From positions 1-64,000 of the forward strand of contig JAMPFJ010000009.1 of assembly GCA_023664535.1 (NCBI GenBank): DNA of 64,000 nucleotides, written 5' to 3'. The stretch is from Bacteroidales bacterium. Its GTDB lineage: Bacteria; Bacillota; Clostridia; Lachnospirales; Lachnospiraceae. Below the pieces are notes generated by a model. The model was not told the origin of the DNA and did not search any database. It worked only from the letters and a program-made list of their open reading frames with translations. Positions 9,704 through 31,213 of the stretch are shown here, one piece after another; the first letter of the stretch is position 1, and the number at the start of each line of letters is the position of its first letter. A program made the position numbers and the translations under genes.

Positions 9704-9731
9704 GAGGACGTTCGGTATGGACGTCTTTTTT
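9704..9731 (+). terminator. Hairpin terminator/attenuator, copy B
   Basis: The same sequence as at 9010-9036 with one change in the loop (TTCGGTATGG against TTCAGTATGG), again followed by a T run. It ends five bases before the ssb ribosome site. Confidence 0.65.
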
Positions 9732-9747
9732 GATTGGAGGAATGTAT

Positions 9748-10164
9748 ATGAATAAAGTGATTTTAATGGGACGTTTAACCAGAGACCCGGAGATAAGATA
9801 CAGCCAGGGAGAAAATGCGCTGGCGATTGCCAGATATACGCTGGCAGTTGACCGCCGGTACCAGAAAAACGGTGAACAGGGTGCGGATTTCATTTCCTGC
9901 GTTGCGTTCGGGAAAAGTGCGGAATTTGCAGAGAAATATCTGCATCAGGGAATAAAGATAGCGCTTGCCGGCAGAATCCAGACAGGCAGTTATACGAATA
10001 AGGATGGCGTGAAAATATATACTACCGATGTGGTTGTGGAAGAGCAGGAGTTTGCGGAAAGCAAGAAAGCCCAGGCAGAGCATGGGGGCAGTCCGGCAGC
10101 GGCAGATAGTGACGGTTTTATGAGAATACCGGAAGGCGTGGAGGATGAACTGCCATTTGCCTGA
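9748..10164 (+). CDS. ssb: Single-stranded DNA-binding protein
   Basis: The 138-residue SSB has an OB fold in the first 105 residues (MNKVILMGRLTRDPEIRY, FISCVAFGKSAEFAEKYLHQGIKIALAGRIQTGSY). A short disordered linker follows, then the acidic C-terminal tip EDELPFA that recruits partner proteins. It binds the transferred single strand and is a regular member of Clostridia ICE conjugation modules. ATG 9748 is chosen because GGAGG at 9736-9740 is spaced 7 bases from it. The length is normal for an ICE SSB and shorter than the housekeeping form. Confidence 0.95.
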   Translation: MNKVILMGRLTRDPEIRYSQGENALAIARYTLAVDRRYQKNGEQGADFISCVAFGKSAEFAEKYLHQGIKIALAGRIQTGSYTNKDGVKIYTTDVVVEEQEFAESKKAQAEHGGSPAAADSDGFMRIPEGVEDELPFA

Positions 10165-10189
10165 AAACAGGCTGATAACATGAAAGGGA

Positions 10190-10226
10190 AAGGACATTAC
10201 CGGGTTTCCGGGAAGTGTCCTTTTTC
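10190..10226 (+). terminator. Hairpin terminator/attenuator after ssb
   Basis: AGGACA...CCGG-loop-CCGG...TGTCCTTTTT forms a stem with a T tail between ssb and the next gene's RBS. Confidence 0.65.
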
Positions 10227-10245
10227 CTGGTTTGGAGGGAAAAAT

Positions 10246-10455
10246 ATGGATAGCAGATTTAGAATAGGAGGACAACTGTATACTCCGGAAGAATTAGGTT
10301 TGGAGCGGTTGACGATAGAAGGGCATTCCTATATTGATATGACACCCTTCTGGCTGGATTCCCGAAAATCGGATGAGGTACGGAAGCGGATAGAGGAGCT
10401 GCGGGAACTGTCCAGGCTAAAGGAAATTGAAGAAAGAAGGAGTGGTAGAAAATGA
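10246..10455 (+). CDS. Small hypothetical ICE protein
   Basis: A 69-residue protein (MDSRFRIGGQLYTPEELGLERL...) with a charged helical C-terminus (EVRKRIEELRELSRLKEIEERRSGRK). TTGGAGGGA supports ATG 10246. Its stop overlaps the start of the next gene by four bases, so it is coupled to the VirB4 pair and is probably part of the transfer apparatus. I do not recognise the family. Confidence 0.6.
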   Translation: MDSRFRIGGQLYTPEELGLERLTIEGHSYIDMTPFWLDSRKSDEVRKRIEELRELSRLKEIEERRSGRK

Positions 10456-11132
10456 TAATTCCGATTGTGATTATTGTTGTGTGTATGGCAGGGCTTCTTT
10501 TTCTTTCACAGTCCGGAAAGAAAAAGAATACCGGAAAGGACAGCGGCGTGTCAGTCGCCGCACAGGATTTTGTGAATGTCAGGGAAATTACAGACCATGT
10601 GCTGTATACCAGGGATAATTATTGTATTTCCTATGTCCGGCTGCAGCCGCCAATGTCTTCGCTGTGGTCAAAGCGTGAAAAACGGATGAAGACAAATACC
10701 CTGGTTGCGGAAGTGTCGAAGGACCGGCTTCCCTGGACGCTGACGGCGGTATCCCGTCCGATGGATATCTCCCAGCTCATCAGCCAGTACCGGCAGATGC
10801 GGGAGGAAACAGACGACCCGGTAAGGAAGAAGCTGTTAAAACAGGAAATGAATGAACTGCAAAAAAAGGTAGGCGGCGGTGAAGCGGTAGAACGGCAGTT
10901 TTACATTAAGATATGGACAGTATTTAAGGATGGGGCAGAAATGGAATTAAAAGAAAGAGCAGGGCAGATTCTTTCGTATTACGAATCCATTGGGGTGACC
11001 GGACAGCTGCTAAAGAAGCCGGATATCATCCGGTTCTGTAACCTTGTCCATAACCCGGCATACATCAACGTAGAGGATGCATCGGCAGAACCCAGCTTTC
11101 CCATGATACTGGAAATGGAGGAGGACGAATGA
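10452..11132 (+). CDS. Membrane protein resembling a VirB4 N-terminal domain
   Basis: This 226-residue protein has an N-terminal membrane segment (MIIPIVIIVVCMAGLLFLS). Its soluble domain has features of the N-terminal, non-ATPase part of VirB4/TrbE proteins (NYCISYVRLQPP, LPWTLTAVSRPMDISQLISQY, helical RKKLLKQEMNELQKK). It overlaps the VirB4 ATPase gene by ATGA (11129-11132). Inference: the usual VirB4 is divided here, with this membrane-anchored half recruiting the ATPase. An alternative is an unrelated accessory subunit. Confidence 0.5.
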   Translation: MIIPIVIIVVCMAGLLFLSQSGKKKNTGKDSGVSVAAQDFVNVREITDHVLYTRDNYCISYVRLQPPMSSLWSKREKRMKTNTLVAEVSKDRLPWTLTAVSRPMDISQLISQYRQMREETDDPVRKKLLKQEMNELQKKVGGGEAVERQFYIKIWTVFKDGAEMELKERAGQILSYYESIGVTGQLLKKPDIIRFCNLVHNPAYINVEDASAEPSFPMILEMEEDE

Positions 11133-12958
11133 GAAAAGAAGATAAAACGATAAATAACGCATTATTAAATATGATTTCTCCTATGGGGTTCCGGTTATAT
11201 AAAAGCAAGCTGACGATTGGGGAGAATATGGCGAAGGTTTATGGAATTACCCGGTTTAATGAGAATCTGGATTACGGCTGGCTGGAATCCTTGATGAATA
11301 TTCCCGGTACTATCGCTGAATTATCCTACGAGCCGCTTCCGGAAGCGGATTCCATGGATGTCATCAATAACAACCTTAAGGTGCTGACCCGTAAGAAGAA
11401 TGAAACCACGGACCCCCTGCAGGAGAAGAAGCTGCAGATTGCGATTGATAATTCCGACCAGATGCTGGAGGATTTATGCCGAAAAGAAGAGAGTGTAGGG
11501 GCATTATCGGCTACCGTAATGACTGTTGCCACGGAAGAATATATGGAGAAGGCAGATTCCAGGCTAAAAGGTGAGGTAAAAAAGGGGAAACACCGTTTCC
11601 GGCTGTTATCGGATATGCAGAAAGAGGGCTATCAGCATATGTCGCCGAGCTATATTAAAAATAAGGATATCAGCAGCATGCTGGACAGACCTGCGCCCCT
11701 GCGCACGGTTCTTGGCGGATTTCCCTTTGCCTCTTCCGGATTTAACGACGGTTCCGGGTATTTGTTCGGAAGCCTGAAAAGCGGTAATAATTCAGCCGGT
11801 TCAAACATGATTTTAGACCCATGGAAGAGAGGGCAGGACCGGAATAATTCGCATATGGTAATCATGGGGCATCCCGGAGTAGGAAAGTCAACCAAAGTTA
11901 AGGATATTATTACAATGGAATATGCCAGGGGAACCCGCCTGTTAGTCATTGACCCGGAAAGAGAGTATAAAACCCTGTGTAAAAGGCTCGGGGGGACATG
12001 GATAAATGCCGGAGGCGGAGCCGGTAAAATCAATCCCCTCCAAATCCGGGTTCTGCCGGGAGACCCGGATGAGGACGGCAGATACAGGGAAGAAAGGGGA
12101 CTGCCGGATTTGGCGGCATATTTGATGCATTTGAAGTCGTGGTTTGAAATGGCATGTCCGGGAATAACCATTGCCCAGTTAAATGAGATGGAAACGATTC
12201 TGATTAAAACATATGAACGTTTTGGGATGCAGTGGTCAACGGATTTTACCAGGTTAAAAAATGAAGATTATCCGATTATGTCGGATGTATATGAGGAGAT
12301 TGAAAAGGAATTGGAGAAAACGCTTGGTACGGGAACCCAGCGGGAGGAGGATTTACTTGCCTTGAAAGGGTTTATCAGCAATATGGTAACCGGCTCCCTG
12401 CAGTTTCTGTGGAACGGGCATACCACTATTGACCTGCATTCCAATATGGTCGTGATTGATACCCATGACCTGCAGAATAATGCTCCGGATTACATTAAGG
12501 GAGCGCAGTATTACAATATTCTGACCTGGATGTGGATAGAGGCTTCCAAAGACAGGAGGGAACGGACAATGATTGTAGCGGATGAAGCCTATCTGATGAT
12601 TGACCGGAAGATACCCCAGGCGCTGGTCTTTCTCCGGAACGGCTTGAAGCGTGGGCGGAAATATGAGATATCCTTTGTTCTGGTGTCCCATTCCGTTGTC
12701 GATTTTCTGGATGATTCCGTCAAAATATATGGACAGGCGATACTGGATTCTGCTGCAATTAAGATACTGATGGGATGTGACGGGCAGAATTTAAAGGATA
12801 CGGTCGAGTTATATAACCTGACCGAGGCAGAGGAGGAAACCCTTGAACTGATGCAGAAAGGGCTTGCCCTGATGATTATCGGACATATGCATATGAAGGT
12901 TATGTTTGAAGTGGCAGATTACAAGTGGGATTACTTCGGTTCTGCCGGAGGAAGGTAA
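11129..12958 (+). CDS. VirB4-family conjugation ATPase
   Basis: The 609-residue ATPase is the motor of the type IV secretion (mating) channel. The Walker A motif is GHPGVGKST (residues 247-255), Walker B is MIVADEAY (481-488), and a RecA-like core spans about 235-590. The stretch IDPEREYKTL (275-284) and the arginine-rich FLRNGLKRGRKYEISFVLVSH are typical of VirB4/TraE-like proteins. It overlaps the genes on both sides (ATGA upstream, TAATG downstream), so all three are coupled. The N-terminal domain is shorter than in full-length VirB4, consistent with the separate upstream membrane half. Confidence 0.93.
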   Translation: MRKEDKTINNALLNMISPMGFRLYKSKLTIGENMAKVYGITRFNENLDYGWLESLMNIPGTIAELSYEPLPEADSMDVINNNLKVLTRKKNETTDPLQEKKLQIAIDNSDQMLEDLCRKEESVGALSATVMTVATEEYMEKADSRLKGEVKKGKHRFRLLSDMQKEGYQHMSPSYIKNKDISSMLDRPAPLRTVLGGFPFASSGFNDGSGYLFGSLKSGNNSAGSNMILDPWKRGQDRNNSHMVIMGHPGVGKSTKVKDIITMEYARGTRLLVIDPEREYKTLCKRLGGTWINAGGGAGKINPLQIRVLPGDPDEDGRYREERGLPDLAAYLMHLKSWFEMACPGITIAQLNEMETILIKTYERFGMQWSTDFTRLKNEDYPIMSDVYEEIEKELEKTLGTGTQREEDLLALKGFISNMVTGSLQFLWNGHTTIDLHSNMVVIDTHDLQNNAPDYIKGAQYYNILTWMWIEASKDRRERTMIVADEAYLMIDRKIPQALVFLRNGLKRGRKYEISFVLVSHSVVDFLDDSVKIYGQAILDSAAIKILMGCDGQNLKDTVELYNLTEAEEETLELMQKGLALMIIGHMHMKVMFEVADYKWDYFGSAGGR

Positions 12959-14244
12959 TGAACAGGGGAATTGCCTGGGCAATAGGAGGAGCAATGCTGT
13001 TCCTTCTGCTGTTCAGTGTAATATTAGGCGCAGAATATACAGAAAGCGAAAATAACGGGTACTATTACGGCACCAATGAATGGATGTGGGTTGTTCCGGA
13101 CTGCAGGAAGATATCCTCTTATTTTGGGAAAAGGAAATCGCCGGCAGCCGGGGCATCTGCTGACCATAAGGGCATTGATATCCCCTGTGCAGAGGGTACA
13201 AATGTGGTTGCATCAAAGAGTGGAACCGTAACTGTGGCAGAAAGTTCCTCTTCTGAAGGGAACTGGATAGCGGTACAGCATGACGAGCATTTTACCTCTT
13301 ACTATATGCACAACAGTACGCTGCTTGTGAAAGCCGGGGATACGGTTGCCAAGGGTCAGGTCATTGCGCTGTCTGGGAACACAGGTATTTCTACCGGGGC
13401 ACATTGCCATTTTGCGATATTGAAAGACGGAAAATATGTAAATCCCCTGGATTACGTGGATAAGGATGAAGAAATCCGCTATACCACAACAGCTTCCACC
13501 GGTCTGCGAAATGATATGGTTGCCTATGCAAAACAGTTTATCGGGAATCCGTATGTATATGGAGGAACAAGCCTGACCAGCGGTGCAGACTGTTCCGGAT
13601 ATACCATGCGGATATATGAACATTTTGGGATAACCATACCACGGACTGCACAGGCGCAGTATAACGCATCGGAAAAGATAAACCGGGAAGACCTGCTGCC
13701 GGGGGATTTGCTGTTCTATGGCGGCAGTATAAATAATGTCAGCCATGTTACCATGTACATAGGAAATAACCAGGTAATCCATGCCAGTAATTCCAAACCG
13801 TATCCGGAGGGAGGGATTAAGATATCGGATATTGGTTACAGGCAGCCCTGCGGTTATGGCAGGTTTATCCAGGCGTCCTATTCCGAGGAAGATTTGCGGT
13901 ATATGGCAGCCTGTATTGCCGCTGAAGCGCTTTCCAGCAGTAAAGAGGGGCAATATGCGGTAGGTTATGTGGTGGCAAACCGGGTAAATGCCAAAGGATT
14001 CGGGAAAACGGTGAAAGAAGTGGTTACCGCACCGGGACAGTTTACCAGCCCATGGAACCAGTATGTAAACAATCCGCCTTCCTGGGCGCTGGAATCGGCA
14101 AGGGCGGTGCTGGAAGGGACGGCGACAAACCCTATCGGCGGAAAGTGCTATTTTATATCATCCGCTTATGCGAAGAAGCTGGGGATTGAAACAAAAGGGG
14201 TGAATGTCGGCGATAATGTGTTCTATGATGAATGCTTGTGGTGA
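12958..14244 (+). CDS. Three-domain peptidoglycan hydrolase (M23 - NlpC/P60 - SleB-like)
   Basis: The 428-residue protein starts at ATG 12958, overlapping the VirB4 stop, with AGGAGGAAG ahead. A membrane/signal segment (about 5-23) is followed by a LytM/M23 domain (HKGIDI, GTNVVASKSGTV, GAHCHFAIL, about 45-170). An NlpC/P60 domain follows (ADCSGYTM with catalytic Cys, SHVTMYIG with His, about 185-310). The C-terminal SleB/Hydrolase_2-like domain (MAACIAAEALSSSKEGQYAVGYVVANRV, VTAPGQF, GGKCYFI) ends the protein. It probably opens the cell wall for the mating channel. Bifunctional hydrolases are usual in this position; a third hydrolase domain makes this one larger. Confidence 0.88.
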   Translation: MNRGIAWAIGGAMLFLLLFSVILGAEYTESENNGYYYGTNEWMWVVPDCRKISSYFGKRKSPAAGASADHKGIDIPCAEGTNVVASKSGTVTVAESSSSEGNWIAVQHDEHFTSYYMHNSTLLVKAGDTVAKGQVIALSGNTGISTGAHCHFAILKDGKYVNPLDYVDKDEEIRYTTTASTGLRNDMVAYAKQFIGNPYVYGGTSLTSGADCSGYTMRIYEHFGITIPRTAQAQYNASEKINREDLLPGDLLFYGGSINNVSHVTMYIGNNQVIHASNSKPYPEGGIKISDIGYRQPCGYGRFIQASYSEEDLRYMAACIAAEALSSSKEGQYAVGYVVANRVNAKGFGKTVKEVVTAPGQFTSPWNQYVNNPPSWALESARAVLEGTATNPIGGKCYFISSAYAKKLGIETKGVNVGDNVFYDECLW

Positions 14245-14795: not shown

Positions 14796-15689
14796 ATGCA
14801 GAGATTTGAAAACAAATATGATTTATTAAATGCAGCCTATAAAGATGCAGAACTGAAAAAAGGAGCGATAGCGTTGTTACAGTATCTGGTACATAAATCC
14901 AATAAGGAGCAATGCTTTCCGGCAGTAGAAACAATCGCAAAATCTCTTGGCGTCTGTAAACGTACTGTCCAGTATAATATGCGTAAACTGGAAAAAGCGG
15001 GATACATTACGAGGGTAGACCGCTGGTATAACCACCAGCAGCTTAGCAACCAGTATGTATTTAATTTTGGAATTACTGAAGAGAAAGCCCGGCAGATAAG
15101 GTTTACCGATGCGGAATATGAGAAAATCAACGGTTTATCTTTCAACATCCCGGAAAAGCATGTAAGGAAAATAAGCGAAATCCAAAAGATATATGCAATG
15201 AAAGGTTTGACAGCCAGAGAGAGAATGGTACTGGTTTATCTTTACCACCGGGCGGATAAGAAAGGGATGCTTTATGACACCCCGGAAGTCTTTATGCGGG
15301 CAGTAGGCATAAGAAAGAGGGTATTTATGCAGATATTGGACGCTTTACGCCGTAAAGGGATGTTACGGATAAAGCTGCTCGTGATAAGGAAAAAAGAATA
15401 TCTGGTTATGCAGCTTACCGGAAATACGGCGGCAGAGGAGAAACGGACTGTTTCTGATGAAAGGGAAGGGTTATCCATGACGCCGGTACCAGGTAATAAT
15501 TTTGATGAGACCCAGCCGGTCATTAGAGAGAAAGATACAGGCAGCCGGAAGCATTTTATCAAAAAGTTTGTACAAAATGTAAAAGACTGGAAGGAGGGAT
15601 GGAAGATGAAGATATACAAAATTTTACATTTATGCCGGAGAAAAATAGCCTTCTCATGGGGAAAACTCCGGAAAATCCTCCGGCTTTGA
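14796..15689 (+). CDS. Helix-turn-helix ICE protein (HTH_36/replication-initiator-like)
   Basis: The 297-residue protein has two winged-helix-like regions. The first (about 20-75) reads ALLQYLVHKSNKEQCFPAVETIAKSLGVCKRTVQYNMRKLEKAGYI in continuous frame and is a typical HTH_36 domain. The second (about 135-205) contains LTARERMVLVYLYHRAD and VFMRAVGIRKRVFMQILDALRRKGML. The C-terminus is basic (KDWKEGWKMKIYKILHLCRRKI). It is the last gene of the conjugation block. A regulator or initiator of plasmid-like replication of the excised circle are both plausible, and no direct evidence separates them. The preceding hairpin suggests attenuated expression. Confidence 0.65.
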   Translation: MQRFENKYDLLNAAYKDAELKKGAIALLQYLVHKSNKEQCFPAVETIAKSLGVCKRTVQYNMRKLEKAGYITRVDRWYNHQQLSNQYVFNFGITEEKARQIRFTDAEYEKINGLSFNIPEKHVRKISEIQKIYAMKGLTARERMVLVYLYHRADKKGMLYDTPEVFMRAVGIRKRVFMQILDALRRKGMLRIKLLVIRKKEYLVMQLTGNTAAEEKRTVSDEREGLSMTPVPGNNFDETQPVIREKDTGSRKHFIKKFVQNVKDWKEGWKMKIYKILHLCRRKIAFSWGKLRKILRL

Positions 15690-17728: not shown

Positions 17729-18997
17729 ATGTATATACATACAGATTATATGGAAAAATACGGAAGAATAATGCAATTCAATAAAAATAAACAGGAGCCT
17801 ATACATAGATGGTATTCATTTGTTGAAGGATACTCAAAAGAGTTTATTCAATCAATTATATCAGAAATGGGTAGGTCTGATTTGGTATGTCTTGAACCAT
17901 TTTCTGGCAGTGGAACGACAGCCTTAGAATTACAGAATAATAATATACCTTGTTACTCCTTTGAGGTAAATCCGTTAATGTATTTAATTGCTAAAGCCAA
18001 GTTGGAGAATTCGTATGATTTGCATAAATTTGATTATTGGTACAGAAATATTAAAAAAAGAAGAGGGAATATAGAGGTGACATTAAACACGGAATATACA
18101 ACTCTTTATGAGGATAAAGATATGGAAAAGTGGAATTATAATACAGAGGTCGGAATTGCAGTTGAGAAATTGAGAACATTGATTGATGGAATTAAAGAGG
18201 ATATTTATAGAGATATTTTTAAGGTGGCTTTAGCAGCAATATTATTAGATGTAAGTAATTTATATAGAAATGGAAAGTGCTTATCATATAAAAAGGATTG
18301 GAAGAATAAAAAAAATTCTGAATTAGATGTTTTTAAAAAATTTGATGATAAAATTATGGAAATAAGAGATGATATTGCAAAATCAATGAGACAAAGTGTT
18401 CAGAATAATAAATTATTATTATTTAATGAGGATTGTAGACAAGGAATAGAGAAAAAAGTAAAAGATGGTACCATTGATTTGGTTATTACTTCTCCACCGT
18501 ATTTAAATTCGCGTGATTATACGGATACATATATGTTAGAATTAAAAACTTTGGGTTTTACAAAAACTAAAGAGGAAATCAGACAACTAAGAGAAAGAAC
18601 ATTTAGATCACATGTTCAAATAAAGTGGAATGATAGTTCTTCAATTAATAATAGATTACTAAAGGACACATTGAAAGAACTAGAACAGGCGTCCTCTAAT
18701 ATTGAAAAATGGAATGATTCAATAATAGATATGGTGCGGTTGTATTTTGTTGACATGCAGAATGTTTTTCGAGTTTTATTTAAAAAATTAAAATCCAAAG
18801 GAAGAGTTTATTTTAATGTTTCAAATTCTGCATATTTTAATGTCCTTATTAACACGCTAGAGATATGTGCATCAATTGCGGAACAAGAGGGGTTTAAAGT
18901 GATAGAAGTAAGGGATGCAAGAAAATTAAAGACTAGCCCTCAGCAAAAAGAAAAAATTGATAAATTATTAGAGGGAGTTATTGTATTGGAGAGATAA
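17729..18997 (+). CDS. DNA methyltransferase (amino type) of a four-gene defence-like operon
   Basis: The 422-residue enzyme has the SAM-binding motif EPFSGSGTT (residues 56-64), followed by SFEVNP for the next strand. The catalytic motif TSPPYLNSRDYT lies at about 254-265. The SPPY form is typical of N4-cytosine or N6-adenine methylation. The 190 residues between the two motifs could hold the target recognition part. The DNA is strongly AT-rich with foreign codon use. The gene ends one base before the next start, and an AAGGA site precedes ATG 17729. Inference: it marks host DNA against the nuclease encoded at the end of the operon. Confidence 0.85.
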   Translation: MYIHTDYMEKYGRIMQFNKNKQEPIHRWYSFVEGYSKEFIQSIISEMGRSDLVCLEPFSGSGTTALELQNNNIPCYSFEVNPLMYLIAKAKLENSYDLHKFDYWYRNIKKRRGNIEVTLNTEYTTLYEDKDMEKWNYNTEVGIAVEKLRTLIDGIKEDIYRDIFKVALAAILLDVSNLYRNGKCLSYKKDWKNKKNSELDVFKKFDDKIMEIRDDIAKSMRQSVQNNKLLLFNEDCRQGIEKKVKDGTIDLVITSPPYLNSRDYTDTYMLELKTLGFTKTKEEIRQLRERTFRSHVQIKWNDSSSINNRLLKDTLKELEQASSNIEKWNDSIIDMVRLYFVDMQNVFRVLFKKLKSKGRVYFNVSNSAYFNVLINTLEICASIAEQEGFKVIEVRDARKLKTSPQQKEKIDKLLEGVIVLER

Positions 18998-18998
18998 G

Positions 18999-20900
18999 AT
19001 GATGAAAAATAAGTATTTTTTGCCTAAAATTACAGAATTGCATATAGATGATTATGATTTATATAAATGTCCGTTTGACATTAATTTTTCAGAGAAGCTT
19101 AATTTGATATTCGGTACGAATGGATTAGGCAAAACCACTTTTCTAAATATCTTGCAATACTCCATTATAGGTCCATATACCGGAAAGATTACATTTCGTA
19201 ATTGGAAGGATCAGCAAAAACTGAGGAGACCTATGTTAGACAAGAAATATTTTAGAAGTCGTATGAATAATGTCAAGGAAAGTGCGATGGTTAAGGTTAC
19301 TTTTTTTCTTGGCAAGGATCAGTATGAAGTATGGCACAATTTGTATGAATTTAAGATAGATAAATTAGTGATTAATGGAAAAGAAATATTAGGAGAAATA
19401 TATAACTATGAAAATTATGAAAAAAAATATTTTGGAAAAAACGATGAAGATTTATCGTGTTATTTAATCAATAGATATCATAGTAATATTGTCGAATCTT
19501 CTGCATTCCCTGATATTAACTCTTTTATTTTAATGATTACTGAAGTTATGTTTTTTTCTGAAGTAAGAGATTTTGTGTTTTGGGATCAAAATATGTGCAA
19601 ATCTATATTAAGTAAGTTCCTGCCTCAAAATAAATATTTTGAATATGATGAAGTACAAAAATTAGTTAAAAAATTTGATAGTCAGGCAAGATTAACGTCG
19701 TATAAAATGTCAATGATAAAAGATTTCTTGGGAGAAGATTTTCTTGAAGAGGCCGGAGAAGAAACAAAGTATACATTAAAGGATTTGCAAAAAATTAATG
19801 AGGAAATTGAAAGCGTACAATTGAGAATTGAAAGATGCGAAAAGGAACTTGGTCAGAACGATAGGGAAAAAACACAAAATCGTGTTGGATATGAGCAAAT
19901 TAGTAAAAAACTTTTGGAAATAGAAAAGCAGTGGTATGAAAATATTTTTCCTGATACGTACCAAGATATGTATAATAGATATGTCCCATTTATTTTGTCT
20001 GGGAAATGCCCATTTTGTGGTGAAGAACATCTAGATGTAAAATTGCATATCGAAGATTGTTTTTATTGCAAAAAACCAATACGTATTAGGAAGAAAGTTG
20101 ATTTGAGTGATTTAGAAATTAAACGAAGAAATTTGGAAAACGAAAGGAAGAGATTACAAAATAATCTTGAGTTATTAAAGAAAGAAGCTTCTAAAGTGAG
20201 AAGTAATTTAAGAGAGGAAGAAAAAGAATTACAGAAATTGATTGACGTCCAACAAAAGATTAAGAAAGAATTAGATGTTGTCGAGAATGATAATGTTGCT
20301 AAGTATAGAAAATTAGAATTATTAAAGAAACAGTATATAGCTGATTTGGAGGATGCTAAGAAAAAAGAAAGAGAGTTGGCATTAGAGATTGATGAAATTA
20401 TCAATGAGGTGTTTGCAGAATATAAAAAGGCATTTAAGAAGTATGCTTATTCTTTTTTGGGGAATGATAAAACTATAGATTTTGAACTTGTTGGCAAGGC
20501 TGAAGATTCTTTTTTTAGATTTTATCTTAATGGAACGGAAAGGGAGACGGAAACTGCTCTTTCTGAGTCTCAGAGAATTTTTGTTGATATGGCATATAGA
20601 TTGGCTACATTAGAATTTTTTCATAAAGATTCATATTTTATAAGTGAGACACCAGATAGTACCTTGGACTATTTGTTTGAAGAGAATGCTGTAAATACAT
20701 TTAGCTATTTTATTGATTCTGGAAACACTGTTTTTATGTCAGCAAATGCTAGAAACAGTCGATTAATTAATGAACTTGCTAAAAAGTATAAGGGAGATTT
20801 TGAATTGATTAATTTGTTAGAAAAATCAAATTTGGCGAGTGAAAGATTTAAGGAAGTACGACAGCTGGAATTATATGGTTTTTTGGAGGTGGAAAAATGA
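18999..20900 (+). CDS. SMC/RAD50-like ABC ATPase with zinc ribbon
   Basis: The 633-residue protein has Walker A GTNGLGKTT (39-47) and a long coiled coil (about 255-330 and 370-470). In the middle lies a zinc ribbon CPFCGE...CFYCKK (about 337-365). An ABC signature-like LSESQ lies at about residue 521 and the Walker B region YFISETPDSTLD at about 545. The canonical Walker B Asp-Glu reads Ser-Glu. This arrangement (SMC-like heads, hook or ribbon) is that of the ATPase of ABC-three-component/Lamassu-type systems. GGAGAG supports ATG 18999 or 19002. It overlaps the next gene by ATGA, so the three downstream proteins are made together. Confidence 0.85.
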   Translation: MMKNKYFLPKITELHIDDYDLYKCPFDINFSEKLNLIFGTNGLGKTTFLNILQYSIIGPYTGKITFRNWKDQQKLRRPMLDKKYFRSRMNNVKESAMVKVTFFLGKDQYEVWHNLYEFKIDKLVINGKEILGEIYNYENYEKKYFGKNDEDLSCYLINRYHSNIVESSAFPDINSFILMITEVMFFSEVRDFVFWDQNMCKSILSKFLPQNKYFEYDEVQKLVKKFDSQARLTSYKMSMIKDFLGEDFLEEAGEETKYTLKDLQKINEEIESVQLRIERCEKELGQNDREKTQNRVGYEQISKKLLEIEKQWYENIFPDTYQDMYNRYVPFILSGKCPFCGEEHLDVKLHIEDCFYCKKPIRIRKKVDLSDLEIKRRNLENERKRLQNNLELLKKEASKVRSNLREEEKELQKLIDVQQKIKKELDVVENDNVAKYRKLELLKKQYIADLEDAKKKERELALEIDEIINEVFAEYKKAFKKYAYSFLGNDKTIDFELVGKAEDSFFRFYLNGTERETETALSESQRIFVDMAYRLATLEFFHKDSYFISETPDSTLDYLFEENAVNTFSYFIDSGNTVFMSANARNSRLINELAKKYKGDFELINLLEKSNLASERFKEVRQLELYGFLEVEK

Positions 20901-21487
20901 AAAATAAACTAGAATATTTTATATGTTTATTTTTATATGCATTAAAAGGTAATACTGTATCAAAAAACACATTGTTCAGATATGTTTATATATTTGATGT
21001 AGTAAATGAATATTTTGGAAATTTTGATAGGATAAATGAAGAAATAATTATTGATAAGGATATGGGGGTGGGAAATATTATTGAGTTGACAAATGCCCTT
21101 AACGAGATAGCTAGAAGAAATTATATTACAATAAAGGGTGCTTTTATTTATATGGAAGCAGATTTGATTACTTATATAGACAGTATTAAAAATAGGGATA
21201 AAGTAAAAGAAGATTTGAATAAAATAATGTATTTTGTAGGCATTGTTTTGTCATATTCGGAAGATGTTATTTTATCAGCTTTTTTTAATGAACCCAATGT
21301 TGAAAATACAATAAGTAGAGGGAAAAATAAAATAGAATTATCAAATAATAAGTTGAAAAATTTATTAGAAGAATTTGAACAACAGGCGAATGATGCAAGA
21401 GAAAATAAGCTTGATAAATATGATGTTTTTTCTAGTTGGTTAGATTTTGTATTTGAGGAATATTTACAGGAGAAGAGCAATGAATAA
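20897..21487 (+). CDS. Small middle component of the ABC/nuclease operon
   Basis: This 196-residue acidic, helical protein (MKNKLEYFICLFLYALKGNTVSKNTLFRYVY...) has no catalytic motif. It overlaps the ATPase gene by four bases and the nuclease gene by eight. Its size, position and hydrophobic N-terminal helix match the middle component of ABC-three-component systems, which bridges ATPase and effector. That role is inferred from context only, because the sequence itself is not one I recognise. Confidence 0.6.
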   Translation: MKNKLEYFICLFLYALKGNTVSKNTLFRYVYIFDVVNEYFGNFDRINEEIIIDKDMGVGNIIELTNALNEIARRNYITIKGAFIYMEADLITYIDSIKNRDKVKEDLNKIMYFVGIVLSYSEDVILSAFFNEPNVENTISRGKNKIELSNNKLKNLLEEFEQQANDARENKLDKYDVFSSWLDFVFEEYLQEKSNE

Positions 21488-22466
21488 AGAAGCATTTCTA
21501 GCAAAAGCAAATGAGAGTAGTTCATTTATAAGTGAGAGTAAAGTATTATCACAATTAGCAATATTAGATAAAGCGGTAATGATTAGTATGGACAGGCTAG
21601 ATTTTTTTAGTACTCATTATATGAAGCTAAAAGATGAAATAGAATTATTAAAAAAATCAAGATTTTATCATGTGAAATTACAAGCGAATGGTCAATGCTT
21701 AATTGAGGATTGTGGTGATAGAAATATAAATGAAGCAGGAATTATCAATATGGTACAAAAAAAGTTTCAAGATTATAAGGGTTATTGTTTTATTGTAAAT
21801 GCTGGTATGCAATATTTATATGCTGGTGGAAAGATGGAAGAGAGCATTCAAAGCTGTTTACAGAAAACTAAATCTATGCAAAAACAGTTGGAAGTTTTAA
21901 AGCCAGTATCTAGAATTAAAGAAGTTTTTGCACATTTTAAAGTAGAATGTGATTATACATATGATTACTACAAACTATGTTTTGACAAATCGAGTAAGAA
22001 GATTAAAAGGGAAATTTTGGAGCAAGATTTACGGAATTATTTAATGAAGTATTTGAAGAAAAATATGCAGGGAGATGTTATGGTTGAATTCTGTACGGAC
22101 TACGTAAATGATGAGGAGTCGGTTGATATATATGTAAATGATGGAAATCAAAGGGCGATAATAGAGGTTAAATTTTCTTTGGCGAAAAAATATTACGAAG
22201 GTGTAACGAATTATGGGATTGCAGATAGGGTTGCTAAGGGGGTAGAACAACTTAATAAGTATGCAATACATTTAGCTAAGGATGCCAGATTAGTTGATTA
22301 TGGTTATGTATATATGTTTTACATAAGTGATTTGAAGAAGGAAACCATTTTAGATAGGATTGAGAAAAAACTTGAAACGGTAATGAAAAATGTTTCTAAT
22401 GACTTAGTTTCTATCTATTCTGGATACGTGTTGAATGATATGAAGTCATGGGGGACGGAAGCATGA
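21480..22466 (+). CDS. PD-(D/E)XK nuclease effector of the ABC operon
   Basis: The 328-residue protein starts at ATG 21480 (ACAGGAGAAG ahead), inside the end of the previous gene. The N-terminal 150 residues are helical and of unknown family. The C-terminal part shows a PD-(D/E)XK nuclease core: EQDLRNYLMKYL (helix with Glu, about 188), ESVDIYV (Asp, about 215) and AIIEVKFS (E-x-K, about 226-228), followed by a long helix. It is most likely the DNA-cleaving effector restrained by the ATPase complex and by methylation. It is the last gene of the operon; no clear terminator follows. Confidence 0.7.
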   Translation: MNKEAFLAKANESSSFISESKVLSQLAILDKAVMISMDRLDFFSTHYMKLKDEIELLKKSRFYHVKLQANGQCLIEDCGDRNINEAGIINMVQKKFQDYKGYCFIVNAGMQYLYAGGKMEESIQSCLQKTKSMQKQLEVLKPVSRIKEVFAHFKVECDYTYDYYKLCFDKSSKKIKREILEQDLRNYLMKYLKKNMQGDVMVEFCTDYVNDEESVDIYVNDGNQRAIIEVKFSLAKKYYEGVTNYGIADRVAKGVEQLNKYAIHLAKDARLVDYGYVYMFYISDLKKETILDRIEKKLETVMKNVSNDLVSIYSGYVLNDMKSWGTEA

Positions 22467-22569
22467 TTGGCTCTAAAATGGCTCTAATAATTTTTACAGA
22501 GTCAAAGAACAGATGTAAAAATATGATTTTGAAGTGAAAATAAGTACACAAATGTGTTAGAAAACACAG

Positions 22570-22695
22570 GGATTACATTATCCGAGCAAGAGTTCAAGTT
22601 ATCTCCTAAATATAGAGTTTGGAGGTTCTCGGGAATCTTATATCGTTCACGTGCAAATGCTTGTTCGTAATAATTTTTAAAAAGTTGGCATAATC
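22570..22695 (-). other. Possible coding fragment in the 22.5-22.8 kb gap
   Basis: The minus strand reads LFKNYYEQAFARERYKIPEN LQTLYLG and on without a stop. It looks like a piece of a protein but has no start, and I do not recognise it. The gap otherwise holds only the 104-bp repeat. Confidence 0.2.
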
Positions 22696-22708
22696 AATTA
22701 TATCAATC

Positions 22709-22812
22709 CTAAACATGAAAAATAAGAAATAGCCGTCCTGCTCTCTGGTAAAGTTTAGGACAGCTATTTCTTAGCCTAATAAATTTGCCGGGACAGGTGA
22801 GGTACATTCACC
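22709..22812. repeat. 104-bp direct repeat, right copy
   Basis: Second copy of the toxin tail (102/104 identical to 16267-16370). It lacks both the toxin start and the antisense promoter. It is joined directly to the 3' end of the DUF262-HNH gene, for which its hairpin (about 22721-22773) may serve as terminator. Confidence 0.95.
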
Positions 22813-22828
22813 CGTATCAGAAGCTGTT

Positions 22829-23917
22829 CTATTTTGCTGATTTTCGCCTGTTACAATTCTTGCATAACATCTGTAAATTATCAGATGTTGTATGACCACC
22901 TTCGGACCAAGGTGTGATGTGATCTCCCTCCATTTCCTTCAGTTCATAGTGTTGCCGGCATTTAGGACAGATACCGCATTGCTTTTCATACTGTGTCCGC
23001 ATCTGAGATGCTGTAAATGCCCGGATAGAAAGGTGCTTTTCTTCTCCGTCAATGAGATATTCATAAATTCCTGACTTTTTTGTTACATCATCATCCATCA
23101 TAAGTTGCGTTACCTCTTCTTCGAGTTCCATAGGGGTAAAGCTCTTGTCTTTAAATTGGTTATAATATAATCCCCATTGTATGCCTTTCATTTCTTTTCT
23201 GTACTTGGGAAATATTGCCTGCACCCAATCAATAACTGACTTATAGTATAGCCATTCTTCGTGCGCATCAGCATCGTGTTGGTGTTGTGCCATATATTCT
23301 TCAAGTGCTATTCCGTCACGGTTTGAAAGCCAAGATAAGACAGTCTGCAAGTAATCTTGCCTGATAGGTGTGCCACTCATATAATTGTTTGCAATCGTGT
23401 AGGCGGGACATAGGATTTTACTAAAACGTTTCTTTGCGTCTGCAAGCCAGGTTCCGGTATAGATTGCATTGCGAAGTTCCTGTTCTGTAAGCTGCTCACC
23501 TGCTATGTTGATTATTTTAAACCAATCCAGTTTCTCCTTGTCATTTCCCTCGCATATATAAATCATAAGCTTATAATCACGCATTTGCTGTTTTTCACTT
23601 TCCGTAAGATTATGAAAATATTGGTAATTGACGGAAAAATCTCCGTTGAGATATTGACATATACTGATCGTCCTTTGCTGTCCGTCCATCAACTCATATC
23701 CGTCATCGGTCTTTACCCAATACATTACATTTAACGGAAATCCTTTGCGGACTGTATTAATTACTTCATCACGCTGTTTATCCTTATAGACAAATTCACG
23801 TTGAAAAGCGGGGCGTATGTTCAATTTGCCGTGATATCCTATAACACCTTCATCATCATTGTCAATATATCCTGCAAATACTTCACTGATAGAAATTTCG
23901 TGCATTTTTATTTCCAT
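22829..23917 (-). CDS. DUF262 (GmrS-like) nuclease with C-terminal HNH domain
   Basis: The 362-residue protein begins with a DUF262/ParB-like domain: LNIRPAFQREFVY (about 31-43) and the nucleotide-binding motif DGQQRT (77-82). A helical middle part follows, and an HNH endonuclease closes the protein (CPKCRQHYELKEMEGDHITPWSEGGHTT, ending CKNCNRRK). DUF262 proteins such as GmrS, SspE and BrxU restrict modified or unmodified DNA using NTP hydrolysis. It starts at the stop of the methyltransferase gene (TAATG, with GGAGGAGAAAG ahead), so the two form a restriction-modification-like pair. An internal ATG at 23905 is a second possible start. Confidence 0.88.
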   Translation of the reverse strand: MEIKMHEISISEVFAGYIDNDDEGVIGYHGKLNIRPAFQREFVYKDKQRDEVINTVRKGFPLNVMYWVKTDDGYELMDGQQRTISICQYLNGDFSVNYQYFHNLTESEKQQMRDYKLMIYICEGNDKEKLDWFKIINIAGEQLTEQELRNAIYTGTWLADAKKRFSKILCPAYTIANNYMSGTPIRQDYLQTVLSWLSNRDGIALEEYMAQHQHDADAHEEWLYYKSVIDWVQAIFPKYRKEMKGIQWGLYYNQFKDKSFTPMELEEEVTQLMMDDDVTKKSGIYEYLIDGEEKHLSIRAFTASQMRTQYEKQCGICPKCRQHYELKEMEGDHITPWSEGGHTTSDNLQMLCKNCNRRKSAK

Positions 23918-24861
23918 TACTTTCTCCTCCTGATTACCAATCTCGCATACTGCGTCTTTTCTTTTCCGTTTATCATCAATTTGAACCGCCCGCCGTCAGA
24001 AGTAAAATCTTTGTCAATACCCAGGATGTCAAATTGCTCCGGGTTATGTTTCACCAAAAAAGTAATTGGAACTCCCATTAGACCATAATAGTCCTCTGGA
24101 ATTTTTTCCGTTCGTGATACTTCTATTGCTTCATAATTTGTATACTGGGGGTATTCTGCTTCCGTATATTGCTTATACAAAGTCATATCTTCGTGCCTTT
24201 CGGGATAGTCCATATTAGTATACCAGCATATATTTCCCATACGCCGCCATTTTATGCCGCTTCCATCAATTTTGAAGTCTGTGTTCTTCTCCTCGTACCA
24301 ATCAGGGACCCTGAACCAGAAATGTCCGCTGTTTCTGCCAAGCCATATTCTATTGTTCATAATCAGCGGTGTTATTTCCTTGTATGTTATATTATTGATA
24401 TTACCGATTACAATAAAACTCTTTTGATATTCGACAAGCTGGGAAATGTACTCCCGGAATAAACTGAACGGCGGATTGGTCACAACAATATCTGATTCCT
24501 TTAACAGTTCTATACATTCGAGACTTCGGAAATCCCCATTCTGTGAAAGTTCTGTCTTAATCACATCATCTTCATTTACATTCCTATTTCCGGCAGCATC
24601 TTTTATCAGTTCCAGCTTATAGGTAGGTTTTTGGGCGTCATAATGTGTGGCAATCAGTTTTTTTAGTCCAAGAAATTCAAAATTGATAGCAAAGTATTTC
24701 CAGAAGTTAGACCATGCTGGGTCATCGCAATTACAAAAGACAATTTTGTCCTTGAAATGGTTTCTGTAATATTTTAATTCATTTTCTATCATAGAAATCT
24801 GTGTATAAAACTCGTCCTGTTTATTCCGTGCGGAATCAGTTAAATTACGGTTTCCTGCCAT
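23917..24861 (-). CDS. EcoRI-family adenine-specific DNA methyltransferase
   Basis: The 314-residue enzyme shows the features of the M.EcoRI family. FCNCDDPAWSNFWKYF (about 42-57) begins the SAM-binding region, LGLKKLIATHYD follows, and the catalytic motif VVTNPPFSLFREY lies at about 126-138. It methylates adenine in a defined DNA sequence; the target here is unknown. It is coupled to a DUF262-HNH nuclease rather than to an EcoRI-type endonuclease. Its upstream region is a 140-bp segment bounded by inverted repeats beside a recombinase, so its transcription may be phase variable. Confidence 0.9.
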   Translation of the reverse strand: MAGNRNLTDSARNKQDEFYTQISMIENELKYYRNHFKDKIVFCNCDDPAWSNFWKYFAINFEFLGLKKLIATHYDAQKPTYKLELIKDAAGNRNVNEDDVIKTELSQNGDFRSLECIELLKESDIVVTNPPFSLFREYISQLVEYQKSFIVIGNINNITYKEITPLIMNNRIWLGRNSGHFWFRVPDWYEEKNTDFKIDGSGIKWRRMGNICWYTNMDYPERHEDMTLYKQYTEAEYPQYTNYEAIEVSRTEKIPEDYYGLMGVPITFLVKHNPEQFDILGIDKDFTSDGGRFKLMINGKEKTQYARLVIRRRK

Positions 24862-28163: not shown

Positions 28164-28517
28164 TTATCCGATACGATGCTCTTTTTCCTGGTGAAGTTCC
28201 TGTTCTCTAACTAATGCAGACATGTTTCCAATAATAATATCTCTGTTAGATGAATTTAACTTTCTGCCGTAGTATGTAAGTTTGTTAAAAAATTCCTCGT
28301 TTTCGTTTTGTAATTCATCTAATCCGAGTAGATAATCAGTGCTTACAGAAAAAAAAGAGGCAAGGCGTTTGAGTATTTCTATATCAGGCTGACTTATTTT
28401 TCTTTCGTAGCCCGTAATAGTCTGCCGAGATATGCCAATACTGTTAGCCAATTCTTCCTGTGTGATATGAAATGATTTTCGTAGACTTTTAATTTTGTCT
28501 CCAATTATTGAATCCAT
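28164..28517 (-). CDS. XRE-family transcriptional repressor
   Basis: The 117-residue protein has a classical Cro/C1 helix-turn-helix at residues 6-62 (IKSLRKSFHITQEELANSIG ISRQTITGYERKISQPDIEI), then SVSTDYLLGLDEL and a helical tail. Start ATG 28517 is chosen because GCGGGGTGA lies six bases upstream; the GTG at 28526 is inside that site. Two 13-bp direct repeats (28566-28578 and 28588-28600) next to its start and overlapping the divergent promoter are likely operators. It would thus control both itself and the transcript leading into the noncoding region at 28.7-29.1 kb. Confidence 0.85.
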   Translation of the reverse strand: MDSIIGDKIKSLRKSFHITQEELANSIGISRQTITGYERKISQPDIEILKRLASFFSVSTDYLLGLDELQNENEEFFNKLTYYGRKLNSSNRDIIIGNMSALVREQELHQEKEHRIG

Positions 28518-28565
28518 AATTTTCACCCCGCTTTATTTTAGCATTATCACACATATATAAATTAG

Positions 28566-28600: not shown

Positions 28601-28629
28601 TTGACATAATGGAAATGATGGTGTAAAAT
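28601..28629 (+). promoter_or_regulatory. Strong rightward promoter
   Basis: TTGACA (28601-28606), 17-bp spacer, TAAAAT (28624-28629). The second operator repeat abuts its -35. No ORF longer than 16 codons follows for 600 bp, so the product may be a noncoding RNA. Confidence 0.7.
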
Positions 28630-28733
28630 GAAGAAAGTAATATTCCTAAATTCAGTTAGGGTTGGTGATAAAATATAAAAATGATGGATTGATAAATATT
28701 GGTACGAGGGAAAGAAATAATGACATATTGTTC

Positions 28734-28767
28734 TATCAGAGCATTCTCACGCAAGAATCCTCTGATA
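28734..28767. other. Hairpin TATCAGAG...CTCTGATA
   Basis: An 8-bp perfect stem, a C/C mismatch, then ATTCT/AGAAT and a six-base loop. There is no T run, so it is unlikely to be a terminator; it could be RNA structure or a protein site. Confidence 0.45.
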
Positions 28768-28853
28768 AGATAATATGCAGTGAAGCTATAGACGGTATAG
28801 CAATAGATGTATATTTATAGTGGAAAGTATAGATGTAAATAACATTTATATAA

Positions 28854-29090
28854 GTAGGCGGGGACCATGATAACTGAATAGTACGATACGGCTGGGCGTT
28901 AGTTATTGAAATAAGCGGAGTCAAGCAAAGAGCTGCGGAGATGTGGAGCGATAAGCGAAAGCGGTAATACGGAGCGGTAGTTATAACTAAAGAAACCCAC
29001 CTACCAGAACCTGGACGCAGATGGGTACTCGGGCACGAAACGCACCGGGAGAGAACAAGAACTGGGAAAGCAGAAATGCTGGCTGTAAAG
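28854..29090 (+). ncRNA. Candidate structured noncoding RNA
   Basis: A GC-rich island in AT-rich DNA with no ORF. GTAGGCGGG (28854-28862) can pair with CCCACCTAC (28996-29004) and enclose smaller helices (ATAACT/AGTTAT; GCGATAAGCGAAAGC). Further short hairpins follow (CCAGAACCTGG; CTCGG...CCGGGAG; AGCAGAAATGCT). It lies downstream of the strong XRE-controlled promoter. I cannot place it in a known RNA family. Confidence 0.45.
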
Positions 29091-29229
29091 TACAAGTTAT
29101 TTTTATTGCTATAGCTGGAACGTAAGTGTGCAGCGTTTGCAGATTTACGTTTTCGCTATGAGTGTTAATATTTTCAGATTATTTCTCATAGACTGGACAA
29201 AGAGTATAAAGGCAGGGGGTGATTCCACC

Positions 29230-29391
29230 GTGAAAAAAAGAAAATTGAATTATACCATACATAATCCTAACACCGTGGAAGAAACCGCTAAAATTTTAAT
29301 GGATATCCTAATCCAGGCAAATGAGGAAAAGGTGGAAAGGAAATTCAAGGAATTGCAGGAATGCTTTGCCGCCGATGAATTGGAGGGCTGA
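29230..29391 (+). CDS. Small protein ahead of the integrase
   Basis: A 53-residue basic protein starting at GTG 29230 (AGGGGGTGA at 29214-29222 is the ribosome site): VKKRKLNYTIHNPNTVEETA... followed by a helix ending in ELQECFAADELEG. Short ORFs of this kind commonly precede large serine recombinases in Lachnospiraceae mobile elements. It may act as a directionality factor or regulator, but the sequence gives no proof. Confidence 0.55.
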   Translation: MKKRKLNYTIHNPNTVEETAKILMDILIQANEEKVERKFKELQECFAADELEG

Positions 29392-29435
29392 AAGGCTGCT
29401 GCTTAAACAGGCAGTTTTTGTCGCAGGGTAATGAC

Positions 29436-29502: not shown

Positions 29503-31071
29503 ATGAATATTGCCGCTTATTGCAGAGTTTCGACCGATAAAGCCGACCAGTTGAATAGCCTGGAAGCGCAAAAAGAATTTTTTTCTGAATATACAAAACG
29601 TACCGGTGACAATCTTGTCCGTCTGTATGCAGATGAGGGGATATCCGGTACAAAAATTAAAAACCGTAAGGAATTTCTGCGTATGATGTCCGATGCCGAA
29701 CACGGTCTGTTTGATATGGTAGTGGTCAAGGATATTTCCCGTTTTGCCAGGAATACAGTAGATTTGCTTCAAAATATCCGCAAATTAAAATCTCTCGGTA
29801 TTGAAACGCAATTCCTTACTGCTAACATGACCAGCATGGGCAACAGTGAGTTTGTTCTGACTATTTTCGGAGCATTGGCGCAGGAGGAAAGCGCAAATAC
29901 TTCCAAGCGGGTGAAGTTTGGTAAAAAGATGAATGCGGAAAAAGGACGTGTTCCCAATATTGTCTATGGCTATGACAAGACGATTGGGGATTATTTTAAT
30001 TTAACAATCAATGAAGAAGAAGCGGGTGTTATTCGTCAAATATATCAATGGTATACCAAAGAAGGCTATGGAGCCGCTAAGATTTCCATCATGTTGAATG
30101 ACAGAGGTTGTAAGACAAAACGAAACTGTAACTGGAGCCAGAATGCAGTCTGCCGTATTTTAACCAATGAATTATACACCGGAAAGATTATTAACGGAAA
30201 ACAGGAGGTGGCAGATTTTCTAACCGGGCAGCGCAGGGATAAGAATGAAGATGAATGGATAGTGGTGGATAGACCGGACCTGCAGATTATCAAGCCGGAG
30301 GTATTTAAAGAGGCACATGCGATTCTTCAGTCACGCAATCAGACATTTCATCATTCCCATCAACGTCAGAGCAATAAATATCTGTTTTCCACACTAATCC
30401 GCTGTAAGGACTGCGGGTGGTCTTTCCGGAGAACGGTACGGACATATAAGAATACCTATGTACGCTGGGTGTGTTCCGCACATAATGGACGGGGAGCAGA
30501 CAGCTGTCCGAATGCGGTTACGGTGGATGAAGACGAACTGATAGAGGTTCTGCAGGAATATTTTACCGAGATTTTGAAGCAAAAGAAGAAAGTAATCAGC
30601 CATGTGGTTAACGAATTTCAACGGGTTTATAAAGCAAAGGATGAAAATGCTGCGTATGAAAAAGAATTAAATCTACAGCTGAACAGGTTGCGGAGGTCAA
30701 GGCAGAAATACATGGATATGTATACTGATGATTTGATTTCCAGAGAGGAATTAAATGAAAAAATCGGCGGAATGCGCAGGGAAATAGAGCGATTAGAAAA
30801 TGAATTAAAAATGGTATCTTATCACATGACTAAAGGAGAGCAGCTGGAGAGTATATTAAACAGTACGTTTAAGCAGATTGAGGATATTGCCGATGTGCAT
30901 GAGATGACAAATGCGCAGCTGAAGAAGCTGATTCAGAAGATAGAAGTAGACAGGGAAGGGAACGTGGAAATATTCTTATGCTTGTTTGGTGATTTGGGAT
31001 TAGAGGATGTGATACTGATTGGGGATAATCCTGTTGGCAATAGCGTTCCCGATTGTAACAACCATACATAA
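29503..31071 (+). CDS. Large serine recombinase (ICE integrase)
   Basis: The 522-residue protein has an N-terminal resolvase domain (AAYCRVSTDKADQLNSLEAQ, catalytic Ser in RVST; VVVKDISRFARN). A recombinase domain follows (YGYDKTIGDYFNLTINEEEAGVIRQIYQWY in frame, about 155-260), then a zinc ribbon (CKDCGW...C) near 305-350. A long coiled coil (about 380-450) and a C-terminal end of the TndX/SpoIVCA type complete it. It catalyses integration and excision of the ICE. The reading frame runs to 31071, overlapping the first codons of the spoIIID fragment, so the attachment site lies inside or just before its stop codon. It has its own promoter. Confidence 0.95.
   Translation: MNIAAYCRVSTDKADQLNSLEAQKEFFSEYTKRTGDNLVRLYADEGISGTKIKNRKEFLRMMSDAEHGLFDMVVVKDISRFARNTVDLLQNIRKLKSLGIETQFLTANMTSMGNSEFVLTIFGALAQEESANTSKRVKFGKKMNAEKGRVPNIVYGYDKTIGDYFNLTINEEEAGVIRQIYQWYTKEGYGAAKISIMLNDRGCKTKRNCNWSQNAVCRILTNELYTGKIINGKQEVADFLTGQRRDKNEDEWIVVDRPDLQIIKPEVFKEAHAILQSRNQTFHHSHQRQSNKYLFSTLIRCKDCGWSFRRTVRTYKNTYVRWVCSAHNGRGADSCPNAVTVDEDELIEVLQEYFTEILKQKKKVISHVVNEFQRVYKAKDENAAYEKELNLQLNRLRRSRQKYMDMYTDDLISREELNEKIGGMRREIERLENELKMVSYHMTKGEQLESILNSTFKQIEDIADVHEMTNAQLKKLIQKIEVDREGNVEIFLCLFGDLGLEDVILIGDNPVGNSVPDCNNHT
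31040..31066. other. Probable right attachment site (ICE/spoIIID junction)
   Basis: SpoIIID similarity starts at about 31052 (codons for TTIHKD) while the integrase frame continues to 31071. The crossover core must lie in or near this interval. The left partner site is outside the window, so the exact core cannot be defined. Confidence 0.5.
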
Positions 31072-31213
31072 GGATGTATCAGAGCGGCTGGCATATATCA
31101 ACCCGGCGCTGGCACAGGAGGTAAGAAAGGTGTTGGATGTGAACAAGGCAGAGCGCCATATCAGAGGGGGGATGGCGACAAAGGAAAAATACCTGCAGGA
31201 AAAGACAGGATGA
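31052..31213 (+). pseudogene. spoIIID: 3' half of spoIIID, interrupted by the ICE
   Basis: The frame ends with TIHKDVSERLAYINPALAQE, then VRKVLDVNKAERHIRGGMAT and KEKYLQEKTG. This matches the C-terminal half of SpoIIID, the mother-cell sporulation regulator; the B. subtilis protein has STVHKD-ERLPEINP-LA-EV-LD-RHLRGGEATKLKY in the same order. The N-terminal half with most of its helix-turn-helix is missing here and should lie beyond the left end of the ICE. Codons before TIHKD (ILLAIAFPIVT) belong to the ICE. Excision would be expected to rebuild an intact gene. The stop at 31211-31213 is the native one. Confidence 0.85.

Follow-up and report, generated by a model that had tools for sequence, protein, structure and literature searches.

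What does a GC-rich stretch of DNA encode when it lies between a promoter and an integrase gene and holds no gene of its own? The question arose in the window analysed here, a 64,000-nucleotide stretch of bacterial DNA, in which a sequence-only reading had marked positions 28854-29090 as a structured noncoding region of unrecognised family, downstream of a strong promoter and near the end of a conjugative element (ICE). Several of these points were confirmed directly. GC content was 0.48 at 28900-29099, as against 0.25-0.37 on the left side; no plausible gene-like ORF was found inside the region; and the promoter is near-consensus (TTGACA-17-TAAAAT), with TTGACA-17-TATATT at the equivalent place in a relative described below (copy B). 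An imperfect inverted repeat in the gap between promoter and RNA is shared with the same relative, and might be either an operator or an RNA hairpin. The features discussed are collected in Table 1.

Table 1. Positions of the RNA, its helices and neighbouring features in the window
Feature	Position	Strand	Basis or remark
ICE backbone: SSB, VirB4-type ATPase, NlpC/P60-like protein	9730-14244	+	ORFs named from sequence
Backbone HTH protein	14796-15689	+	Found in exactly the three RNA-holding genomes
XRE-type (HTH_3) regulator, divergent from RNA	28164-28526	-	Pfam HTH_3, E=1e-16
Putative promoter of RNA/integrase transcript	28601-28629	+	11/12 consensus bases
Imperfect inverted repeat, promoter-RNA gap	28724-28777	.	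Shared with copy B
boxA-like motif GGGACCATGATAACTGAATA, 5' end of conserved RNA	28861-28880	+	rRNA-spacer boxA matrix
P1 closing helix	ACGGC 28888-28892 with GCTGT 29082-29086	+	Alignment of three copies
P2 arm	28893-28999; TGGG 28893-28896 with CCCA 28996-28999	+	TGGG/CCCA vs TGCG/CGCA covariation
P2 inner helix	TTAGTTAT 28899-28906 with ATAACTAA 28983-28990	+	Window sequence alone, not cross-copy alignment
P3 hairpin	29002-29027; TACC 29002-29005 with GGTA 29024-29027	+	UACC/GGUA vs UGCC/GGCA covariation
P4 hairpin CTCGGGC..GC.A.CCGGG	29028-29049	+	Three one-sided changes, all G.U-compatible on + strand
Purine-rich junction strand AGAGAACAAGAACTGGGAA, nearly invariant	29050-29068	+	Alignment of three copies
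P5 hairpin AGCA-GAAA-TGCT	29069-29080	+	GNRA loop kept: GAAA, or GUAA in copy B
P1 3' strand GCTGT and end of conserved RNA	29082-29093	+	
Small ORF, 53 aa from GTG, RNA-recombinase gap	29230-29391	+	
Large serine recombinase (integrase), ICE right end	29503-31071	+	Pfam Resolvase, Recombinase, Zn_ribbon_recom
Right attachment site (att), approximate crossover	31060-31070	.	TACATA common to left junction in L205
spoIIID 3' part, interrupted chromosomal gene	31066-31213	+	Named from translated sequence

Extent and fold of the RNA

Folding energy did not distinguish the region from shuffled sequences (z scores of -0.31 and -1.14), and the RNA therefore had to be tested by comparison. Two further copies were present among 26 genomes of the genus, one in G017 (copy A, L002/L039) and one in G020 (copy B, L038). 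Comparison of the three copies delimits a conserved, structured noncoding RNA on the + strand at about 28861-29093. The RNA thus lies where the earlier reading had put it, but its bounds differ, with a boxA-like start at 28861 and an end near 29093. Imperfect inverted repeats of about 50 bp lie directly 3' of the RNA in the window (29111-29159) and in copy A (L002:1431-1486), and their sequence is not conserved between the two. An att site at the window repeat was first suspected, and this was dropped once att had been located (Table 1).

One fold, a junction of five helices (P1-P5), fits all three copies. In a core alignment of the three sequences, trimmed of the variable interior of P2 and P3, all 72 cells (24 pairs in three copies) were paired, compared with 96.2% in shuffles and 29-40% when the partners were slid along the alignment. 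Three pairs were changed on both sides, giving double compensatory changes, and four one-sided changes were compatible with G.U pairing on the + strand only. P1 reads ACGGC/GCTGT, ACAGC/GCTGT and ACAAC/GTTGT across the copies, and P4 follows the pattern YYCGG-GC..GC-A-YCGGG. P1 likely also has an AU-rich outward extension (GUAC/GUAC in the window), the pairing of which is ambiguous. Covariation, which the sequence-only reading had proposed as a check, is therefore present to some degree; it is modest, as 16 of 500 shuffles of the three-sequence core alignment reached the same score, and we judge the structural support to be good, not overwhelming, with three sequences.

The inner hairpins proposed in that reading proved real and conserved across the three copies, whereas its outer pairing of GTAGGCGGG with CCCACCTAC did not hold: 74% of cells were kept, 7 of 27 were broken, and 179 of 500 shuffles did as well. 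CCCACCTAC instead takes part in two other helices, and the conserved closing helix is P1. The pairing of GTAGGCGGG with CCCACCTAC may form as an alternative fold, in competition with P2 and P3.

Covariation can also arise in folded DNA, and ICEs need sites that act as single-stranded DNA folds (sso or oriT) or in recombination. We regard a DNA element of this kind as highly improbable at this locus, since the one-sided changes fit G.U on the + strand but correspond to A.C on the opposite one, a GNRA loop is present, and att is 2 kb off, at 31060-31070.

An Rfam scan, likewise proposed beforehand, was run with the covariance models of 4227 families and returned no match to the window RNA over the gathering cut-off and nothing meaningful at E<=10; a scan of copy A also gave nothing. 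The earlier exclusion of T-box, tmRNA, 6S, group I/II intron and riboswitch families agrees with this result, as does that of an omega RNA or HEARO element, for which no IscB or TnpB gene was recognised among the window ORFs. The opposing possibility raised at the time, a remnant of a coding gene, found no match to any such gene. Wider searches also added no members. A covariance model of the 3' half of the RNA (R1) returned only its own match in 397 genomes of the family, the next matches reaching at most 27 bits and, where inspected, falling mostly inside protein genes. A scan for the exact pattern across about 85,000 species recovered the two known relatives only, the other six matches being unrelated DNA, and neither blastn against plasmids and phages nor pattern scans of viral contigs gave a match to the RNA. 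Because the 397-genome and 85,000-species searches added none, the family is either rare or diverged beyond the reach of these searches. In all likelihood, it is a real structured RNA family found in no library.

The conjugative element around the RNA

The window ICE contains genes for SSB, a VirB4-type ATPase, an NlpC/P60-like protein, an HTH protein, restriction-modification cargo, an XRE regulator and the recombinase, together with the RNA. Its backbone segment from SSB to the NlpC/P60-like protein, on the same strand as the RNA, shows 70-72% DNA identity to the element in G020. The placement of the RNA at an ICE end, as earlier supposed, is borne out: it lies on the + strand inside the conjugative element, adjoining the integrase, and the chromosome resumes inside spoIIID beside the recombinase stop codon. 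Contig C46 (L205) carries the 5' part of this gene together with the left end of the ICE.

spoIIID is a mother-cell sporulation regulator, and excision of the ICE would restore the gene, as happens with the skin element of sigK; a literature search turned up no paper that describes an ICE inserted in spoIIID. The cargo at 17729-24861 encodes a DNA methyltransferase, an SMC-like ATPase, an EcoRI-type adenine methylase and a GmrSD_N/HNH nuclease gene product, and the EcoRI-type methylase and the adjoining nuclease gene are possibly a defence pair. A large Cna-type repeat surface protein is also encoded within the ICE, at 2953-8286.

In one ICE family, all three copies lie between a divergent XRE regulator, at the equivalent position in L002/L039 and L038, and an integrase. 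The integrases themselves differ, being a serine recombinase in the window, a different serine recombinase in copy A and a tyrosine integrase in copy B. By contrast, the backbone HTH protein and the RNA occur in the identical 3 of 115 genomes. Because the HTH protein co-occurs with the RNA whereas the integrases differ, the RNA belongs to the ICE backbone and not to the integrase. A tie to the recombinase itself was also considered and ruled out, as a 70% identical recombinase occurs in phage contig L033 without the RNA; there, a relative of the small ORF precedes the recombinase. The G020 locus (G020:C1:170500-211118; L038, L210 and L211) contains a related ICE in complete form, about 35 kb long and inserted in a tRNA gene resembling tRNA-Gly; its genes include one for a tyrosine integrase and, as cargo, a dGTPase-like gene. 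It exemplifies integrase exchange on one backbone.

The constant place ahead of the integrase in all three copies also bears on whether the region could specify a trans-acting small RNA of the ICE, serving for example in exclusion or immunity and equipped with its own promoter and terminator. There is a promoter-like site of its own, and a T-rich run follows P1 at 29097-29103. No compact GC-rich hairpin precedes this run, however, and no terminator-like site was detected there, so that, taken with the constancy of position, a small RNA of this kind is very unlikely.

Terminators, circle layout and proposed function

In Tn916, canT is a cis-acting, orientation-specific, processive antiterminator RNA located between orf8 and xis, which overrides the left-end terminator T1, an insulator, after excision of the element (Wirachman and Grossman, PMC11658703). 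The window ICE shows a layout of this type at its right end, where the RNA lies between the divergent XRE gene and the integration gene, on the integrase strand. Left-end terminators were predicted in two ICEs, those of the window and G020. At the left end of the window ICE, two intrinsic terminators were predicted between att and parA on the reading strand, with stems of 10 and 12 pairs, T tails and predicted energies of -11.0 and -22.8 kcal/mol. The complete G020 ICE, which is bounded by 27-bp att repeats at the tRNA gene, has predicted terminators at the equivalent place, one of them homologous by eye. From parA to the transfer module, every gene reads in the direction of the RNA. The terminators and the common gene direction give the circle the order promoter, RNA, integrase, attP, terminator, parA and transfer genes, and by this prediction an intrinsic terminator separates the promoter from the element genes.

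This layout suggests that the RNA is likely to be a canT-like processive antiterminator of the ICE, and it probably acts in cis as the folded leader with which the integrase transcript begins. We infer transcription, antitermination and use of boxA, which would operate as follows. RNA polymerase starting at the XRE/integrase promoter would make the boxA-like motif and the five-helix RNA, and the RNA, possibly aided by host NusB-S10 bound at boxA, would render the polymerase terminator-resistant. In the integrated ICE, the modified polymerase would read the integrase and host DNA only, and the terminator ahead of parA would insulate the ICE genes against host promoters. Once the ICE has excised and circularised, the transcript would cross the integrase, attP and the terminator to enter parA/parB and the transfer operon.

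A position 5' of the integrase coding sequence, in the untranslated part of its transcript, would also suit a cis-regulatory leader that serves the adjacent integrase only, through attenuation or masking of the ribosome-binding site, possibly by sensing a ligand or protein. The RNA of copy B ends about 30 bases ahead of the integrase start, and the junction fold with its conserved unpaired strands looks riboswitch-like. Nevertheless, the RNA was kept while the integrases and small ORFs behind it were swapped, only a weak terminator (29398-29415) follows it, and the left-end terminators would go unexplained, making a role confined to the integrase unlikely.

The boxA-like start and known leader RNAs

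The antiterminator reading also draws on the 5' end of the RNA. With a matrix built from rRNA-spacer boxA sites only, GGGACCATGATAACTGAATA ranked first of about 128,000 window positions on both strands, at 13.6 bits with the next at 10.7, a weak score compared with the 25-33 bits of rRNA sites. The corresponding start is TGTACTTTGACAACTGAATA in copy A (23.4 bits) and GTGTACCTGACAACTGAATA in copy B (-0.6 bits, with a one-base deletion). In other members of the family, TGTACCTTGAAAACTGCATA or a close variant of it stands in the rRNA spacer, in most cases 120-230 bases ahead of 23S. A Tn916-type element has TGTTCTTTGAAAACTGAATA at the canT start (23.4 bits), and the motif TGTACyTTGAmAACTGmATA occurs both in family rRNA spacers and in the ICE leaders. 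The boxA likeness is a sequence resemblance, and NusB-S10 binding is putative. The 452-bp canT fragment, which is active, starts partway through the motif and lacks TGTTCT, so that canT does not need the full boxA. Copies of the rRNA type (CTTTGAmAACTGAATA) also precede long leader RNAs in L086, L089, L100 and L088 (minus strand, about 1500), which are further mobile elements that encode Tn916-like integrases or serine recombinases.

The structure of canT could not be interpreted by its discoverers (PMC11658703). In the Tn916-type element L206 (pCTN1046), the Rfam pemK RNA matches positions 1664-1764. By the coordinates in PMC11658703, with codons 1 and 30 of orf5 as a check, we placed two inactivating canT mutations on this element: canT(S3), a substitution, coincides exactly with the first three bases of the pemK match, and a 162-bp deletion takes the match out entirely. 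Because both hit the match, the orphan Rfam family pemK is very probably the essential core of canT. pemK (RF02913) is likewise a leader RNA of mobile elements, and a boxA-like site (at least 14/18) lies at -130 to -235 in 14 of 30 pemK loci of the family, as against 0 of 60 control scans. The pemK model gave no match to the window at gathering or at E<=10, and judged by sequence the window RNA is a new family outside that of canT/pemK.

Clostridiales-3 RNA (RF02942) in the genus member G005 lies similarly between a AACTGAATA-type motif and a serine recombinase, but its model does not match the window RNA, and its AACTGAATA is unlike boxA and pairs with CAGTT in a local hairpin. A boxA ahead of this RNA was ruled out, the scores being equal to those of controls. 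At L096:1501-1851, Clostridiales-3 RNA lies 3' of TTTTAACAACTGAATA and ahead of a serine recombinase; AACTG pairs there with a nearby CAGTT, with compensated variation in other loci.

The boxA of rRNA operons acts in NusB/S10 antitermination; in the window the boxA-like motif is attached to a five-helix RNA, and binding of NusB/S10 is putative. PMC11658703 also cites put RNA (HK022), EAR (B. subtilis eps) and conAn1/conAn2 (pLS20), in which processive antitermination of long operons is RNA-based or RNA-assisted; no Rfam model matched the window RNA.

In the searchable literature, canT is the sole ICE antiterminator RNA of this type that has been demonstrated. A second, unrelated family with the same layout and a boxA-like start would show that the coupling of transfer to excision by antitermination evolved more than once or diverged unrecognisably. 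Such a family would also assign a function to the orphan motif pemK and open the role of boxA to direct testing. We tentatively suggest, as a possibility short of an even chance, that Bacillota conjugative elements repeatedly evolved unrelated leader RNAs starting with boxA, which borrow host NusB-S10-NusG for the transfer operons only after excision. If this is true, one boxA-leader class would comprise the window RNA, canT/pemK and possibly further orphan leader RNAs.

Compared with Tn916, the window ICE has a different backbone, with parA at its left end and no sigma-factor gene orf7 in front, and its RNA of about 230 nt is shorter than canT (341-452 nt) and has no detectable sequence or structure homology to it outside boxA. 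What the two elements share is the right-end order of divergent XRE regulator, RNA and integration gene with the same strand logic, a left-end intrinsic terminator ahead of the element's first genes (predicted in the window ICE), and an RNA whose 5' end carries a boxA-like motif.
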